64,000 bases of DNA. Source: Rheinheimera sp. 1928-s (GTDB taxonomy: Bacteria > Pseudomonadota > Gammaproteobacteria > Enterobacterales > Alteromonadaceae). A program made the position numbers and the translations under genes. The notes beneath the pieces were generated by a model that searched no databases, was not told the origin of the DNA, and saw only the letters and a program-made list of their open reading frames with translations. Within the stretch, counting starts at the first letter, position 1. Each line of letters begins with the position of its first letter. The DNA lies in the NCBI RefSeq assembly GCF_029269265.1, contig NZ_JARIXP010000008.1, positions 1-64,000 of the forward strand, given 5' to 3'. Below are positions 18,806 through 29,484 of this stretch, in pieces.

Positions 18806-19085
18806 CACTTTTTACATCCACAATCATCAAAGCTTTCCACGAAATCCATACCGACATCCGCCAGATCTCTGCCAAATCCAGATAGTGCACCAAGCCCAGC
18901 CCCCTTTGTTAGATTTCGCAAGAAACCATAGCCTTTTCCTCCAGAGGTATACCCACCTAAGAAGCCTGACACTGCACCATTCAAAGTATCATCTAACGCT
19001 ATTTTAGGTGTACTACTTGCCGTTACCAAAGTGGCAATTCCAGCTGCTGTAAAATTACCTCCGTTTACAAGTGCAGTAGCTCCAC
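18805..19085 (-). pseudogene. Orphan Rhs C-terminal toxin tip (glycine-rich, hydrophobic)
   Basis: A frame open from 19092 reads SGATALVNGGNFTAAG, then ALDDTLNGAVSGFLGGYTSG, then GLRNLTKGAGLGALSGFG-like glycine-rich sequence and ends in FDDCGCKK. The part from about 19030 down could be translated from a TTG, but no ribosome site is seen. It joins the core fragment at about 19083-19085 out of frame, so the distal core was deleted and the tip can no longer be made as an Rhs fusion. The composition suggests a membrane-active or small structured tip; no catalytic motif is recognised. Confidence 0.6.
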
Positions 19086-19487
19086 TTGCCCATTAAAGTA
19101 AATGTACTGTTTGGTGGTGCCTTCGGCTAACAACTGACCTTGTGGGCTATAGATAAACCTCGTTTCAACACTGCCGACTGCTTTATACACCCGCTGGCCC
19201 AGCGCGTTGTATCTGTACTGTGCTGAACCTGCGCTCGCCATTCGGTTATCGTTGTTATAGCTGTAGCTGATAACACTGCCATCAAAACGTTTTTCACTGC
19301 TGACATTACCGTTAGCGTCATAACCAAAAATTCGCGTTTGGCCGCCTTTAGTCACTGAAGATAAACGGTTTGAATTGGGAGCTATAGCGTAGGTTTCATT
19401 GACAGCTCCACTGCGGCTGGTTCTGTTGCCCAACGCATCATAGCCAAAACTATGATTACCCAGGCCACTGCTGGTGATGCCTGTTAA
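19083..19487 (-). pseudogene. Displaced Rhs core fragment
   Basis: About 400 bases nearly identical to the intact rhs gene, reading [20 protein letters not shown] through YIYFNGQV, then a jump to VELLHL and a stop at 19065. The open frame continues upstream to 19559 only because it runs through the terminator of the preceding immunity gene; there is no ribosome site. It is the residue of a former 3' end of the Rhs gene left behind when a new tip was acquired. Confidence 0.85.
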
Positions 19488-19512
19488 GCAGTTGAGTTCA
19501 AATCGAAGATTG

Positions 19513-19537
19513 GGGGCCAAGGTACAACACCGGCCCC
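19513..19537 (-). terminator. Hairpin after the Rhs immunity gene
   Basis: GGGGCC (19513-19518) pairs with GGCCCC (19532-19537), about 15 bases past the stop at 19552. The T-tract is weak. Position and shape parallel the hairpin after the second immunity gene. Confidence 0.45.
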
Positions 19538-19551
19538 ACAACATAAACATC

Positions 19552-19812
19552 CTATTCAATGAAACATAAATGATTAGAGTTAGTCACATATAGTTCAATA
19601 TTTTTGGCCTGAAACAACATTTTCTCATCGGCCCTGTTTTCAGAATTGCATTTTGATAGATGCGGTTTCATTTTATAGAAAATGTCCAACTTAGCATTCA
19701 GCTCCCCGTCTGCAATGCCCCTCTGAAGATAAGATTCCTTTGTCTCATAATGTGTAACAAAAACCACCACAACAAATGAGATTACTACAACAAAGTTCTT
19801 GATCAGTTGCAT
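19552..19812 (-). CDS. Putative immunity protein for the Rhs toxin, membrane-anchored
   Basis: From the ATG at 19812 there are 86 residues: an N-terminal hydrophobic anchor or signal ([16 protein letters not shown], residues 5-20), then a polar domain with two cysteines. The ribosome site GGAGG lies in the last codons of rhs, 5 bases before this ATG, and the genes overlap by 10 bases, so translation is coupled. A domain held on the periplasmic side fits protection from a peptidoglycan-directed toxin. No family recognised; role inferred. Confidence 0.65.
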
Positions 19813-22800
19813 GAGCACCTCCGAATAACTGAATTTTGGCCAGTTCTAAACCCCCAGTTATTTTCAACAACTCCGCTGGGTGATGCGGATATAGTTGAAC
19901 TACTGCTAGTTGCAATACCCACATGACCACCATGGGCTACCAAATCTCCCGCTTGCGCAGGACCTTGCGTCACGACTGGCCAGCCTACAACAGAATAACT
20001 AGCACTGGATAGACTCTGTGCACCAGGAGGATAAAGGCCCAATAATTGAGACATCAAGCTGCCACCAACGTTGGGTAAGTTATAACCAGAAGATTCATAG
20101 GATGTATCCGCATAGAGATTACATTTATATGTATTCTCTCCAAAACCTCTGTTTATATCTGTTCTGTCGGCCGATTTACTCCAATCTCTCTTATCATTTC
20201 TGGCTGCGCTGATTACATCTTGTGGCAACCCACATGGGCACAATCCAAATTCATCAACCAATATCAGAGGATTTCCCCCCACATACCCATAAGTATTCAA
20301 CCCACCCGCCAAACCAATAGGGTCACTCTGCAAATAGCGCCCTAAAGTCGCATCGTAATCCCTGAAATAGTTATACCAGCTTTGTTTTTCAGAGTCCCAA
20401 TATTGGCCAGGGAAGCCGATATTAAAGTCACCAATAGAAGTAGTCAGTACAGAACGGTCAAAGGCCTCCAGCTTAGCCCGCCAGACTATCGCTTTGCTGG
20501 CATTGGTTATCACTTCAGGACGCCCCAAATGGTCGTTGTGCACATAATACAGCTGGTTGTTCAGAATATAACCCACCACTTGTCCATTAAAATAAATGTA
20601 CTGTTTAGTGGTACCTTCGGCTAACAACTGACCATCCGGGCTGTAAATAAAGCGGGTTTCAACACTGCCGACTTTTTTATACACCCGCTGGCCCAAGGCA
20701 TTGTATCTGTACTGCGCCGAGCCTGCGCTCGCCATTCGGTTATCGTTGTTATAGCTGTAGCTAATCACACTGCCGTCAAAACGTTTTTCACTGGTGACAT
20801 TACCACTAGCGTCATAACCAAAAATTCGGGTTTGACCGCCTTTGGTCACTGAAGATAAACGGTTTGAATTGGGTGCTATAGCGTAGCTCTCATTCACAGC
20901 ACCACTGCGGCTGGTTCTGTTGCCCAACGCATCATAGCCAAAACTATGATTGCCCAAACCACTGCTGGTGATGCCTGTTAAACGTTTTAACGCATCGTAG
21001 CTGAAATTCTGGCTATAACTACTGGTAATGCCGTGAGTGATTGCACTGATGGTGTTATCCAGGTTGTAACTAAAACCAAGGCTTTGTACCCCAGGCGTGC
21101 TGATGCCTGTTAAGCGGTAACTCTGGTCGTAACTCAGGTTGCGTTTTAAACCATTGCCATAAGTCCATTCATCCACTGGCCCGCCCGGAAATTGTTTGAT
21201 CCCTGTCAGCACCGACCGGCTGACACCGTTGATAGTCACTGTCATGGAGGCTAAATCACCATTCACGGCATAAGAGTAATTGACCCTGTTGCCACCAGGA
21301 TAGGTTTGGCTGATGACACGGCCCATCGCGTCGTAACCCCAGGTGGTCACATCATTCCAGCTGCCGACATAGTTGGCTGCCAGAGTGGTTTGAGTTTGGC
21401 TGCTTAATAAACCCCATTCATTAAACTGGTAGCTGGTGGAGCCACTGTCGTTGCCCACCTTATTCAGTTTACCTTTTGCATAAGAACCTTCGTCATAAGT
21501 CCAGAGCGCCTGGCTACCATTACTTTTGTATTGAATTCGCCCAACAGCATCATAGTCATAAGTGGTGGTGATACCTCTGGCGTCTGTGCTGTTTGACAAT
21601 AAGCCCATTTCATCATAGTTAAAACTACTTTGGCCGCTATCCGGGCTGAGCAGTTGTTCAAGCTGAGCTCTGTCGTTTTTACTATTGATAGTGCTATTAA
21701 AGCGCGCATCCTGAACCTGCTTTAAGCCTCTAGCATCATGGCTGAAGGTAGTCACTTTTCCTGCAGCGTCTGTTTGCCGGATAAGACGACCCAAGGCATC
21801 GTAGGCAAACTGAGTGGTTGTATTGGTCTGCGCATCTGCATCCGTTAAACGATTTCCATTGCCATCATAGGTAAAAGTGCGCATGACCTGACCTGCATGG
21901 TTCTTAGCTTTTACCAGATGGCCCATGCTGTCATATTCATAACTTAGAGCCCATCGTGTTGCACTGGTATAATAAGAACCACAGTCAGGTTGTGTCGGCT
22001 GCACTGGCTGTGAGACATCCGGGGCGTCAGGATCTGGTCTGGGTAAGATGATGATTGGTTCTTCGATCAGCCCTGAGCTAAAAGATGTGATTGGAGGAGC
22101 CTCTGGAATTGACATCGGGTCACCACAATCGACAAAACGACTGAAAAACTGATCTGCTAAGCTCATACGTGTTACATTCCCAGCTTTGTCATAAGAATAA
22201 GTTTTGAATGACCTAACATGACTTCCTGGCACTCGTCCTGAGCTTGGAGGGATGATACTGTAATATTCATGGATCAATTGCTCAGCGGCATTATAGTGAT
22301 AACCAGTTCCTGCCCCTGTGCTTTGTTTGACTGAAGACAAATTCCCAGCCCAGTTATAAGTATAAATAGTTGCATTACTAGCACCGAAAGCCGACAGTTT
22401 CTCTTCTTTAGTGACCCGCCCCATTTTGTCGTAAACATATTTTGTAACTGTACCATCAGGGTATGTTATTTGCCCCACATGACCTAAAGCATCATAACCG
22501 CTGTATAAAGTGACAAGCCCGGATGCATCTGTTGATCTGATGACATTTCCTGATGAGTCATACTGGAATGTAGAAACCCGCTGATTGGGTGTGGTGACAG
22601 TGATCTGACTAAATAAATGGTTACTATGATACGTATAAGTGTATGTGGTGGTATAGGTTTGACCATTAGCTAAGGTCTCATAAGTCAGCAGGTTTTGTTT
22701 TTCATCGTAGCTAAAGCGCTCAGTTAGCCATCCGGTGGTTTTTCTCGTTAACTTATTCAGGTTGTCATGCCAACTGAGCAAAGTTGTGATCGCTTCCGGT

Positions 22801-24173
22801 TCGCCATAAGCATTTATTTGCTGAATGACCTGATTTTTGCCATTGTAGCTGTAACGAGTGACCTTATCGTTCCAGTCTGTTTCTGTCACTTTGCGTCCAC
22901 TAGTATCATAAGTGGTCGCCTGAGCACTGGCGGCACAATAGGCAGAACCTTCTTTTTCAACCCGCATCAGTTTTGATCTAAGAGCGCTGTCGTAAAAATA
23001 AGTGGTTTTATGACCTAAGGGATTCGTAACTGTGGTGGTATCTGCTGTAAAAGAGAAATTATGCTTTTCCGTCTCATTAGCGTGCTTAGACTCTATTGCC
23101 CGCCCTGTTGAGTCATATTGAAAGTAGGAGAATCTGGTGTTTCCTTTAGCTACTCCGGTTAATAAAGTAGGAAACCTGCTGTCTTCATAATAATAGGTTT
23201 TACTATTTCCATCAGGAAACACCACTCTACCCAACATACCGTTGGTTTTATAGCTGTATTGATATTCATATCCAGCATTGTTTTTAACCGACGAAATACG
23301 TTCGCCCTGCCAATCAAAGGTTAGTTTACGGCCGTTAGAATGGGTAATGGCTGACAGCTTACCGCTGCTATTGTAACTATAGCTGTGGCTGATACCGTAA
23401 GACTGGATCTGCAGGGCTCCGGAAAAGGTTAGTGTGTCAGGCTTTTCAGAAAATGAAACATTAATTAACCGGCCCAGGCTGTCGTAAATTTCGTTCTGAT
23501 CGCTTTCGTTACGGAATATCCAACTGTTGCCAGCCCCCTGATAGAGATAATTCTTGCCGGAGGCCGTTTTATAGCCCGACTTAGAGCCCACACCAGGAAC
23601 GTCAAAGGTTGCGGCGGAAAGCTTTACCGACTTACCATCACCCCGGTATAAGGTTTTCGTGCTGACATCCAGGCGTTTATCAAAGCTGCTGCTCCAGCCT
23701 TTCCCAAAAGCGCCCTCGTAGTTATTATGACTGGAATAGTGGCGGCTGATTTCAAGGGGATATTGCTCTTTACCAACAAAATCGGTTTCAAACTCTACTT
23801 TTTCGCCATTGGCAACCATAATCGGATTACCGTCGCACTTGTCATCGTCTGGGTTATTTTCTGGAGCACTACCTCCACCACCCCCCCCGCCACTTCCGGA
23901 AAGACTGCGATTTCTCCAGTCGGTCATAAAAAAATGGATATCCCACATTTGAGAGGGCAGTCTGGTACCAACAACAGCTATTCTTTCTGTCGGTTCTTCT
24001 GGTTCTTTAGCATTAGCTTTATTAACACCAACAGACCAGCCTGTACCGGGTAACCACTGGCTAAATGTGGTGTTTGCCGTATCAGATTTGTTGCCATCTG
24101 CTGTATTACAGATATTTATACCTCCCATTGCCAGAAAAGTATAAAACGCCACCCTGCTGTATTTATTGAGCAC
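19803..24173 (-). CDS. Rhs/YD-repeat polymorphic toxin with NlpC/P60-like C-terminal domain
   Basis: A 1456-residue protein starting at GTG with AAGGAG 6 bases upstream. Order of parts: a hydrophobic N-terminus (1-25), an [10 protein letters not shown] motif and Gly7 linker (64-101), a DUF6531-like domain (about 114-190), many YD repeats forming a shell (about 230-1200), and the Rhs core ([13 protein letters not shown]... to [24 protein letters not shown]). The tip runs from about 1312 to 1456. In the tip, [19 protein letters not shown] (Cys1351) and [15 protein letters not shown] (His1414/His1417) resemble the Cys and His motifs of NlpC/P60 peptidases, so a peptidoglycan amidase or peptidase toxin is inferred. 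No vgrG, hcp or PAAR gene is nearby. Confidence 0.88.
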
Positions 24174-27625: not shown

Positions 27626-28084
27626 TTACGACTCAACTAATAAACGACGGACACGCACCATGCCCGGGGCATCGGCCACTGCCAGATCCAGTTGCACTAT
27701 GCTGACGTTATGCTGGTACTGCAAAGCATGCAGCCAGGTCAGCAGTTGATCAAAACTAATATCGTTCAGCATCACCTGCATCTGATCATTTTGTGGTTGC
27801 ATCCGGCTGACCTGAATTTTGTGGGTCCGTGCGCTGGAGCTAATGATATCGGTCAGACTACCCTGCACTTTGGTTTGCGTGGACACCACAGGAAAATTGC
27901 TGACTTGCAACAACTGCTGACTGACTTGTTGCAACTGCACTTGTTGGCTCTGGTAATTGAGATGTAACGGTGCCCACAGCAGCCAATAAAAAGCTGCTAC
28001 CGCTAAAGTGACGCCAGCCCCCAGCACCAACTGTTGTTCACGTTTTTGCAGTGATTGCCACCAGCTTTGTAGTTGTTTCATCAT
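27626..28084 (-). CDS. gspM: Type II secretion protein M
   Basis: A 152-residue bitopic inner-membrane protein: cytoplasmic start (MKQLQSWWQSLQKREQQLV), one helix (about 19-37), then a coiled-coil and ferredoxin-like periplasmic domain. It pairs with GspL in the assembly platform. The start can be either of two adjacent ATGs (28084, 28081). The first overlaps the stop of the last micro-ORF by ATGA, and no strong ribosome site of its own is seen. Confidence 0.9.
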   Translation of the reverse strand: MMKQLQSWWQSLQKREQQLVLGAGVTLAVAAFYWLLWAPLHLNYQSQQVQLQQVSQQLLQVSNFPVVSTQTKVQGSLTDIISSSARTHKIQVSRMQPQNDQMQVMLNDISFDQLLTWLHALQYQHNVSIVQLDLAVADAPGMVRVRRLLVES

Positions 28085-28146
28085 ACAACACCGTGTGTAT
28101 TAGCAGCCTGCGGCTGTGAAAATTGTCTATCCTGCCAATTTTTCAT
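28081..28146 (-). CDS. Tandem micro-ORF 3, 21 residues
   Basis: Starts MKNWQDRQFSQPQAA and ends NTHGVV. GGAGG lies 6 bases before its ATG, which overlaps the stop of micro-ORF 2. Its own TGA overlaps the gspM start. The first 15 residues are identical to those of the two upstream copies, and the tail differs. Whether it is translated is unknown. Confidence 0.45.
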   Translation of the reverse strand: MKNWQDRQFSQPQAANTHGVV

Positions 28147-28220
28147 ACGGCACCTCCATGTGCCGTACACTGACGGGCAGCCTGTGGCTGTGAAAATTGT
28201 CTATCCTGCCAATTTTTCAT
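28143..28220 (-). CDS. Tandem micro-ORF 2, 25 residues
   Basis: MKNWQDRQFSQPQAA followed by RQCTAHGGAV and TGA. It has GGAGG 6 bases before its ATG and ATGA overlaps at both ends. The GGAGG of the next copy lies inside its last codons (AHGGA), so ribosome site and coding sequence are interlocked. Confidence 0.45.
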   Translation of the reverse strand: MKNWQDRQFSQPQAARQCTAHGGAV

Positions 28221-28294
28221 TTGGCACCTCCGTGTGCCGCACCTTGAATGGCAGCCTGCGGCTGTGAAAATTGTCTATCCTGCCAATTTTTCAT
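28217..28294 (-). CDS. Tandem micro-ORF 1, 25 residues
   Basis: First copy in the direction of transcription: MKNWQDRQFSQPQAA then IQGAAHGGAK and TGA. Its ATG overlaps the gspL stop (ATGA). AAGGTG in the gspL 3' end, 5 bases upstream, can act as ribosome site. No hydrophobic segment; the peptide is Gln/Ala rich. No family recognised. Confidence 0.45.
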   Translation of the reverse strand: MKNWQDRQFSQPQAAIQGAAHGGAK

Positions 28295-29484
28295 ACTTTC
28301 ACCTTCATCGCCACAGTACCTTGTACTTTGCCGCCTTCGTTACTTAAAGCCCCTTGTTTCACTTCAAAACCTTTTTGTTCCAGTCGGGTTTTTAAATGAT
28401 CAAAACGCTGGAAGCTGTCCGCTTCGGCCTGAAAACGCAATTCACTGTTTTTTTGATCGTACCTTAAGTTGTCTAAACGCACATTGGTGGTCGCCGCCAG
28501 TTCTTGTTGCAACTGATTCAGCAAACTAAACAAACTCGCGTCCTGCCCACTGCCTGCACCTTGTAATTTACGGGCCAACTGACGGGAAATATCCCGGGTT
28601 GATTCAGCGGGGAAGCGACTTTTATACAGAGTCACAAGCTCTGCTCTTTGTTGCTGCAGCAATTGCCCTTGCTGCCACACTTGCGCGCCTAAGGCGAGTA
28701 GATACAAAGCTAAACAACTGGCGCCCAGCACAATAGAGGTTTGCCATAATGACCAGACTTTATTCTGCGCTTTTTTCGGCGCGTACTGCCCCTGCAGCAA
28801 ACTAAAGCGTTGCTCTGGCAGTTGCTGCGCTAACAAAGCCAGAGGCAGCTCTGGTTCAGCCGCCTGCACGTTTTGCAATATCTCTGCTGGCCACGGACTG
28901 TAGCTGTGGATCAATTCGATATTCGCCAGACTTAAAAAGTCCGGCCACCAGTTCGGCTCAATACTGGACGCCTGCCATGGGCCCTGACGCAATAACCACT
29001 GACCCGCCAACTCAATAGCTGAAGCACCGTCCTGATGTTCTGGTAATAACAACGCATCAGGCACTAACTGTATTGGCTGAAAACCAGCGACAACCAATGA
29101 GCCGACCCATTGTTCCAATTGAGTTTTTTTACATAGAGCCACTTGCTGCCAATACTCTTTGCCACGTTGCTGACATACACCCAAAGCCAGATACAACTGC
29201 TCAATATCCTCTGCATGCTCTTCTTCGAGCATATAAGGCAAAGCCTGTATAATTTGCCGGTTGGGTTTAGCAGGCAGCAACACTTCGCTTAACACCACAT
29301 CAGCTGCAGGCACTAAAGCCACTACAGGACGACGGCCTAAACGCTCTGACAACGCAGCAAGCTCGTCGGCAGACGCCAACTGACCGCTGGCGATAATCTC
29401 TTGATTGATGGCGGACCATACCAACCAACTGATTGGCTGCTGTGGCTGACTACCCAGTCTTATTATTAATTGTTCGTTCACCAC
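28291..29484 (-). CDS. gspL: Type II secretion protein L
   Basis: A 397-residue bitopic protein: a cytoplasmic actin-like domain (1-240) that binds GspE, one transmembrane helix (about 249-270) and a periplasmic ferredoxin-like domain ending VQGTVAMKVKV. It overlaps gspK by 7 bases. Its stop codon is also the start of the micro-ORF array, so the usual direct gspL-gspM junction is interrupted by about 200 bases. Confidence 0.92.
   Translation of the reverse strand: MVNEQLIIRLGSQPQQPISWLVWSAINQEIIASGQLASADELAALSERLGRRPVVALVPAADVVLSEVLLPAKPNRQIIQALPYMLEEEHAEDIEQLYLALGVCQQRGKEYWQQVALCKKTQLEQWVGSLVVAGFQPIQLVPDALLLPEHQDGASAIELAGQWLLRQGPWQASSIEPNWWPDFLSLANIELIHSYSPWPAEILQNVQAAEPELPLALLAQQLPEQRFSLLQGQYAPKKAQNKVWSLWQTSIVLGASCLALYLLALGAQVWQQGQLLQQQRAELVTLYKSRFPAESTRDISRQLARKLQGAGSGQDASLFSLLNQLQQELAATTNVRLDNLRYDQKNSELRFQAEADSFQRFDHLKTRLEQKGFEVKQGALSNEGGKVQGTVAMKVKV

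Follow-up and report, generated by a model that had tools for sequence, protein, structure and literature searches.

A dispersed start-codon repeat in Rheinheimera and Sedimenticola that probably relays ribosomes into the gene it interrupts

We asked why the genes gspL and gspM of Rheinheimera sp. 1928-s are separated by three tandem micro-ORFs, and what kind of element such an array represents. The locus lies in the 64,000-nucleotide stretch of contig NZ_JARIXP010000008.1 that we analysed as a whole (the window). The micro-ORF starts are spaced by 74 and 74 nt, and all four junctions (gspL-ORF1, ORF1-ORF2, ORF2-ORF3 and ORF3-gspM) are ATGA overlaps. GGAGG stands 6 nt ahead of the ATG in ORF2 and ORF3 and AAGGTG ahead of ORF1, while the 44-base cores differ at a single base, a change from CCG to CCA that leaves proline in place. 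The original prediction had described exactly this arrangement, including its ribosome sites and its one synonymous core difference, and the coordinates agree with it. We read the array as tandem copies of a dispersed 74-nt repeat, seemingly mobile, whose insertion site is the start-codon ATGA and which relays ribosomes into the gene behind it, a reading to which we assign a probability of roughly 80%. At the level of sequence, it draws on dispersal, exact insertion with empty sites, varying copy number, frame continuity and covarying hairpins.

Table 1. Features of the gspL-gspM locus and of an RHS locus in the window (positions in nt of the window).
Feature	Position	Strand	Remarks
gspL	28291-29484	-	upstream gene; TIGR01709 match, E 2e-91; stops in the ATGA of ORF1
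AAGGTG	28300-28305	-	native Shine-Dalgarno-like sequence within the 3' end of gspL, now preceding unit 1
Micro-ORF array	28294 to 28081	-	three tandem units
Unit 1 micro-ORF	28217-28294	-	25 aa, MKNWQDRQFSQPQAAIQGAAHGGAK; ATGA shared with the gspL stop
Unit 1 GGAGG	28231-28227		serves unit 2
Unit 2 micro-ORF	28143-28220	-	25 aa, MKNWQDRQFSQPQAARQCTAHGGAV
Unit 2 hairpin H1	28216-28193		
Unit 2 hairpin H2	28190-28178		
Unit 2 hairpin H3	28167-28146		stem includes the A of the following ATG
Unit 2 GGAGG	28157-28153		loop and first stem base of H3
Unit 3 micro-ORF	28081-28146	-	21 aa, MKNWQDRQFSQPQAANTHGVV; ATGA shared with the gspM start
gspM	27626-28084	-	downstream gene; the array sits at its start codon
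RHS-repeat protein	19803-24173	-	1456 aa; PF05593, DUF6531, RHS
RHS fragment	19065-19559	-	separate fragment after the RHS protein; repeats part of the RHS core

A full unit can form three hairpins: H1 (loop GCAGGATAGA), H2 (a triloop) and H3, whose loop, for example ATGGAG or AGGGAG, holds the Shine-Dalgarno sequence and whose stem includes the first base of the ATG that follows. Unit 1 has a weakened H3. Unit 3, which adjoins gspM, is 12 nt below full unit length with its frame intact and has lost both GGAGG and H3, so that gspM is preceded by a weak GGTG only; judging by these motifs, its translation start may be poorly served. The original prediction does not note the shortened third unit or its missing GGAGG. 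The best NCBIfam match of gspM is a GspM family model (E 2.5e-18, below the curated cut-off). Elsewhere in the window, the fragment that follows the RHS-repeat protein (Table 1) is one that we take to resemble displaced RHS tips.

Comparison within the genus points to an insertion. The gspM site is filled in 8 of 22 Rheinheimera genomes (with 3, 2, 2, 2, 1, 1, 1 and 1 units) and empty in 14; copy number at this one site thus runs from 0 to 3. Neighbouring empty sites read GTGAAAGC-ATGAGCCAA, the second part beginning ATGAGCC, and a filled one reads GTGAAAGC-ATGAACC...GGAGGTAGCTT-ATGAGCCAA. The filled copy ends ...GCTT before ATGAGCC, which places the insertion exactly at the start-codon ATGA, and because unit and target have ATGA in common, the cut point cannot be fixed. 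Likewise, rsmA is preceded by two units in one Sedimenticola genome and by none within 260 nt upstream in two others. Filled sites hold between 1 and 6 units.

Taken as a whole, the original interpretation is supported in part. Among its options, the dispersed nature of the repeat is well supported. The source genome carries 6 near-identical cores at 3 places, with none for the reversed pattern, and a 35-base core is present at up to 3 mismatches in 10 of the 22 Rheinheimera genomes (reversed pattern, 0). An exact 20-base scan of a species-genome collection returned 23 stretches, belonging to named Rheinheimera, to three MAGs (two filed as Gammaproteobacteria and one as Rheinheimera) and to three Sedimenticola genomes under two species names. 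At E<=0.1, a covariance model built from 13 units (R1) matched those three Sedimenticola genomes 19, 26 and 26 times, with coding and non-coding copies pooled. When a 21-base core with up to 2 mismatches was sought in 196 genomes drawn from the family, 6 had it and the reversed control gave 1 match; two of these 6 lie outside the genus, where the core matched once per genome and inspection by eye showed no repeat structure. Peptide, DNA-word and term searches of the open-access literature found no description of this element.

Among 26 coding-type sites read (5 in Rheinheimera and 21 in Sedimenticola), 24 are gene starts; the sites were grouped by eye, and those of the genus come from among the matches listed, so that decayed copies may be missed. 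The two exceptions are an intergenic site (L166/L176), which we take to be ccm-like by N-terminus, and a truncated copy (L202). Downstream proteins match a family in 23 of 24 cases, several of them starting at or close to residue 1: GspM, RlmM, DUF6691, a YnbE-like lipoprotein, an amidohydrolase, an ABC-2 permease, Cca, SpoVR, PrfA, a TPP enzyme, a PAS protein, HisI, RsmA, a response regulator, an ABC ATPase, Fic, HypD, FlgN, a lipoyl E2, a metallophosphoesterase, a 4Fe-4S protein, an RRM protein and a Crp-like protein. The remaining one, of 130 aa, has no family match. The proposal that the repeat is adapted to operon junctions calls for one refinement: the site is the downstream start codon. 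Scored over 66 arrays for upstream ORFs of at least 60 codons ending in the ATGA of the first unit, an upstream stop overlaps that unit in 24 arrays, which come from the truncated copy L202 and from 9 of the 24 start-codon sites, namely those of gspM, the ABC-2 permease, prfA, the TPP enzyme, the PAS protein, hypD, spoVR, the lipoyl E2 and cca. At the remaining sites, native sequence lies in between, or no long upstream ORF ends at the first unit. Such placement could reflect either target specificity or selection against insertions elsewhere.

The frame was followed through 69 coding-type arrays, some of which share a site in related genomes and so do not count as independent. In 60 of them it leads into the downstream gene, and the suggestion that the unit is built to pass ribosomes on appears well supported in this respect. 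The last junction is a 4-nt overlap in 56 of these arrays, a complete in-frame fusion into the gene in 3 (L019, L063 and L068) and a restart 2 nt past a stop in 1 (L179). Of the 9 arrays without a clear relay, three end at a stop (one in L166, two in L176), two reach a contig end (L171 and L172), L185 has lost its start and its chain is out of frame with the gene, L202 is truncated, and L256 and L258 are cut by another repeat, leaving a remnant with an early stop at cca and a remnant at the ABC-2 permease gene, respectively. These counts combine a script run on 66 distinct arrays (46 reaching the gene, 17 open and 3 stopping, with L171, L172, L185 and L202 reassigned by hand) with 3 arrays added from 7 further matches (six weak ones in Sedimenticola and one in the genus), four of them non-coding; of the added arrays, L260 relays and L256 and L258 are the remnants. 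A stretch resembling the repeat that cuts the latter two (GGTGTCGGAGTCAAACC...) is also present ahead of rsmA in another Sedimenticola locus, L245.

Continuity is retained through variation in unit length. All coding-type multi-unit arrays read in Rheinheimera have a period of 74, while Sedimenticola uses periods of 74 and 80, with ATGA overlap, and of 78 and 75, with no stop between units and a fused peptide. The length changes seen within units (-12, -3, +6, +48, +96 and +162 nt) are each divisible by three and keep the frame. Odd spacings and most internal indels would still give coupling or in-frame fusion, and many decayed copies retain one or the other; L185, L256 and L258 do not. As to whether copies elsewhere keep both ORF and ribosome site, most do, with a site of GGAGG or GGGA type, but L166, L176, L185, L256 and L258 have lost one of the two. 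Some Sedimenticola units appear to host other repeats in turn. L184, L187, L190 and L194 carry a 48-nt in-frame module inside H3 (longer in L194) with further GGA motifs, seemingly another repeat nested in the unit, and L170 has a 162-nt in-frame insertion, apparently also a repeat, with the ATGA overlap still at its end.

Support for the hairpins comes from covariation, counted in alignments that were fitted to, or built with, the structure under test: both sides change in 9 of 20 pairs in alignment A1 (13 units, of which 12 have the coding-type core and one is diverged; 0 of 500 shuffles), in 19 of 20 pairs across 101 Rheinheimera and Sedimenticola matches, coding and non-coding, and in 20 of 20 modelled pairs across 76 sequences, where pairing stands at 94.3%, 0 of 500 shuffles did as well and slid controls scored far lower. 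Unit 2 alone has a z-score of -2.7 as RNA and of -4.5 as DNA (with H1, H2 and H3), and its RNA minimum-energy fold keeps H2 and H3 and lacks H1; unit 1 alone reaches -0.47 as RNA, no better than shuffles, and -2.1 as DNA.

The unit is one member of a larger family of hairpin repeats: of 369 genomes drawn from the Gammaproteobacteria, 70 (from 59 of 272 genera) contain a match at E<=1e-5. At E<=0.001, at least 20 of the 22 Rheinheimera genomes match it, among the matches listed, and the source genome holds at least 18 matches. Most wider-family copies read, in a reading that covered at least one match from 29 of the 69 other element-positive genomes (L103-L131, with more from three of them), are without a micro-ORF and have four hairpins, the extra short one lying between H2 and H3; their consensus, written by eye, is roughly TCGACAAATCGGCAGGATAGCCGATTTGCACAGCCGAAGGCTGCCCGAAGGGCGAGGCACAGGGATGTGCCGAGTAA. 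We considered tRNA-like false matches and rejected them, as the match sequences read form one repeat family with conserved loops. In 10 loci searched with Rfam, no family scored above its gathering threshold on the element; the one above-gathering match was a tRNA beside the element in L128, and sX7 overlapped one L103 copy at 24.1 bits against a gathering score of 55 (E 0.88). Non-coding members of the source genome outside the window include L154 (757-833, minus), L155 (728-801, plus), L156 (758-831, minus) and L157 (803-876, plus). Rheinheimera tangshanensis has three tandem non-coding units spaced by 73 and 75 (L036, 6765-6965, plus). In a further gammaproteobacterial genome, six wide-family matches, some in each orientation, fall within about 1.6 kb (L118), a stretch that also has an ORF that we take to resemble part of a group II intron protein. 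Searches of plasmids by blastn gave no match to the array or to one wide-family copy, those of phages gave none to the wide-family copy, and the coding core had none in viral contigs. Seven viral-contig stretches (L247-L253) carry an exact wide-family H1 pattern and may be prophage or host flank.

Several properties suggest that this structure is kept at the DNA level. Among standard pairs, the G-U share is 1.4% for the wide set and 2.6% for the Rheinheimera and Sedimenticola set, against 6.8% for 15 tRNAs from the loci analysed, and 77 of 98 perfect triloops are GNA, a type typical of stable DNA mini-hairpins. By a crude count that used greedy ORFs instead of a gene finder, the orientation of 76 matches (75 belonging to the wider type) is unbiased relative to neighbouring ORFs, with both neighbours on the same strand in 18, both opposite in 18, mixed in 17 and a neighbour missing in 23; coding-type copies are co-directional with their gene. 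Taken together, low G-U content, GNA triloops and lack of orientation bias favour conservation as DNA, perhaps in a single-stranded intermediate, and an RNA role is also compatible with them. DNA-like hairpins of this kind would suit a palindromic repeat of the REP/RAYT type moved by a Y1 (HUH) transposase, its start-codon copies being the subset that survived. Such a reading concerns the mode of movement and can coexist with our main one. Y1_Tnp genes do occur in 13 of 14 genomes; against it, 30 loci examined out of 77 Y1_Tnp matches from 14 genomes (including G204, not a known carrier; 19 of the 30 with full 1.5-kb flanks) yielded two weak element matches (E 0.0028 and 0.59) and none convincing, and we regard it as rather unlikely. 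We consider it distinctly improbable that the repeat is a CsrA/RsmA control element, in which the GGA loops of H1 and H3 would bind a CsrA dimer across the Shine-Dalgarno sequence and place the downstream gene under Csr/Rsm control. Scored by the CsrA binding consensus, 72 of 76 sequences carry GGA around H1 and 71 carry it around H3, and CANGGANG, the usual H3 loop, lies near the 3' end in 61 of 76. These loops make a Csr role possible, and E. coli iraD offers a published precedent with a matching coupling layout (PMC5574718). The unbiased orientation and the weak co-occurrence with csrA lend it no strong support, however: CsrA was found in 64 of 70 element-positive against 248 of 299 element-negative genomes (P 0.05; G220, G288, G335, G375, G398 and G503 being the positives counted by eye as without it, four of them through absence from the list of CsrA-positive genomes). 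Moreover, some coding-type copies (L003 and L036) have lost the H3 GGA yet kept GAGG.

Two further explanations take the coding capacity or the position of the array as its purpose. If the unit were a small-protein cassette, its 25-aa peptide would be functional and selected as protein. The N-terminal 15 residues are indeed nearly invariant in Rheinheimera, and stops are depleted: 81 distinct unit sequences contain 120 unique substitution types in codons 2-24, of which 2 create a stop against 7.4 expected (P 0.0012), as counted by unique types against the consensus codon rather than by mapped events, and one of the 81 (L179) has an actual in-frame stop. The excess of synonymous types, by contrast, is not significant (33 against 28.7 expected, P 0.10). 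Conservation of the 21-base core is at the DNA level and extends to its synonymous sites; the C-terminal part is variable, Sedimenticola units fuse into concatemers, and decayed copies are fused to unrelated N-termini. The reading frame thus seems to be kept, and the peptide sequence is not clearly selected, which leaves the cassette option of the original prediction weakly supported and, in our judgement, very unlikely. The other explanation, that the locus took up the array as a means of adjusting the GspL:GspM ratio by copy number, could appeal to the 0 to 3 copies at gspM across species and to Shine-Dalgarno sequences that are not alike between units. As the unit also precedes 23 other genes and is missing at gspM in 14 of 22 genomes, such a purpose is unsupported, and we give it scarcely any credence.

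We return to the start-codon relay. In the mechanism that we propose, a unit would enter a gene at the start-codon ATGA, and its micro-ORF, by beginning at the old start codon, would come to lie behind the gene's own ribosome site, which would feed this first micro-ORF. The end of the unit would supply a Shine-Dalgarno sequence of its own together with an ATGA that recreates the start of the gene or of the next unit. Since each unit would recreate its own target, tandem growth would be easy. A ribosome ending one micro-ORF would open H3 and restart on the next ORF, so that one or many copies would be tolerable. A hairpin over a start that is opened by the upstream ribosome is a coupling model set out in the relevant section of a review (PMC12548453); here, both a stop/start overlap and a hairpin across the downstream start are present, although this hairpin, H3, is weaker in unit 1 and missing from unit 3. 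We infer from this arrangement that the micro-ORFs are translated and coupled. The main effect would be to make the insertion nearly harmless to the host gene, by the logic proposed for mycobacterial MIRUs, and the coding form would camouflage itself by carrying ribosomes across. Spread presumably proceeds through a single-stranded DNA hairpin form.

These findings would place the MIRU strategy, that of living in a start codon while the host gene is still translated, in a second bacterial group. The evidence for this is clean and comprises empty sites, chains of up to six units and two alternative ways of keeping translation continuous. Environmental strains that differ in copy number before one gene offer a natural dose series for the frequency of ribosome reinitiation. 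Furthermore, the hairpin-repeat family is widespread, had no Rfam match above threshold in the 10 loci, and gives a basis on which a mobiliser can be sought. More tentatively, and at somewhat short of even odds, a class-wide family of single-stranded DNA hairpins in Gammaproteobacteria gave rise to a coding, ATGA-targeting relay form, at least in Rheinheimera and Sedimenticola, as a separate invention of the MIRU strategy. If this is true, start codons would appear to offer mobile DNA a general refuge.

Known repeats and coupled ORFs help to place the element. REP/BIME and other intergenic hairpin repeats are dispersed, form hairpins and occur in many genomes. The repeat described here differs from them in having coding-type copies that sit in start codons with a reading frame, and in showing no convincing Y1 neighbour in 30 loci. 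Because 74 equals 22 plus 52, we also considered the constant-length tandem repeats of Bacillus, which measure 52 or 20-21 nt and of which the 52-nt ones are transcribed in B. coagulans, according to the portion of PMC8161180 that deals with them. They are likewise tandem and of fixed size; however, their period is another one, they are distinguished there from tandem repeats that code, and neither "start codon" nor "stop codon" appears in the main text of PMC8161180. Fixed-length Bacillus satellites were rejected as relatives, as nothing is shared beyond tandemness. In E. coli iraD, CsrA represses through a 27-aa ORF that ends in a stop overlapping the start of iraD, as excerpted from PMC5574718. 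The likeness lies in a short ORF with its stop over a gene start, a Shine-Dalgarno sequence sequestered by structure and a GGA nearby; the difference is that iraD is one locus, not presented as a repeat in that excerpt, and that CsrA binding is demonstrated there and suggested here.

Mycobacterial MIRUs are the closest precedent. Both are short interspersed repeats found at several places per genome. MIRU-VNTR typing rests on variation in tandem copy number. MIRUs appear mobile, insert at start codons and carry an internal ORF coupled at -4 nt, which likely limits harm, as summarised in the passage of PMC12548453 that cites Supply et al. 1997. Their start-codon insertion and -4 coupling have a counterpart here in 24 of 26 sites and in 56 of 69 arrays with a 4-nt overlap, and their apparent mobility in filled and empty sites and varying copy number. 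There are also differences. The hosts belong to different phyla, being mycobacteria in one case and gammaproteobacteria in the other; the unit described here is part of a wider hairpin-repeat family; fusion in frame, at a period of 78 or 75, is a second route in Sedimenticola arrays; and the MIRU passage in PMC12548453 mentions neither hairpins nor a carried Shine-Dalgarno sequence, both of which are present here. As the two are likened by description and not by sequence, we call the element MIRU-like rather than a MIRU, and by this analogy we read it as a MIRU-like repeat outside the mycobacteria.
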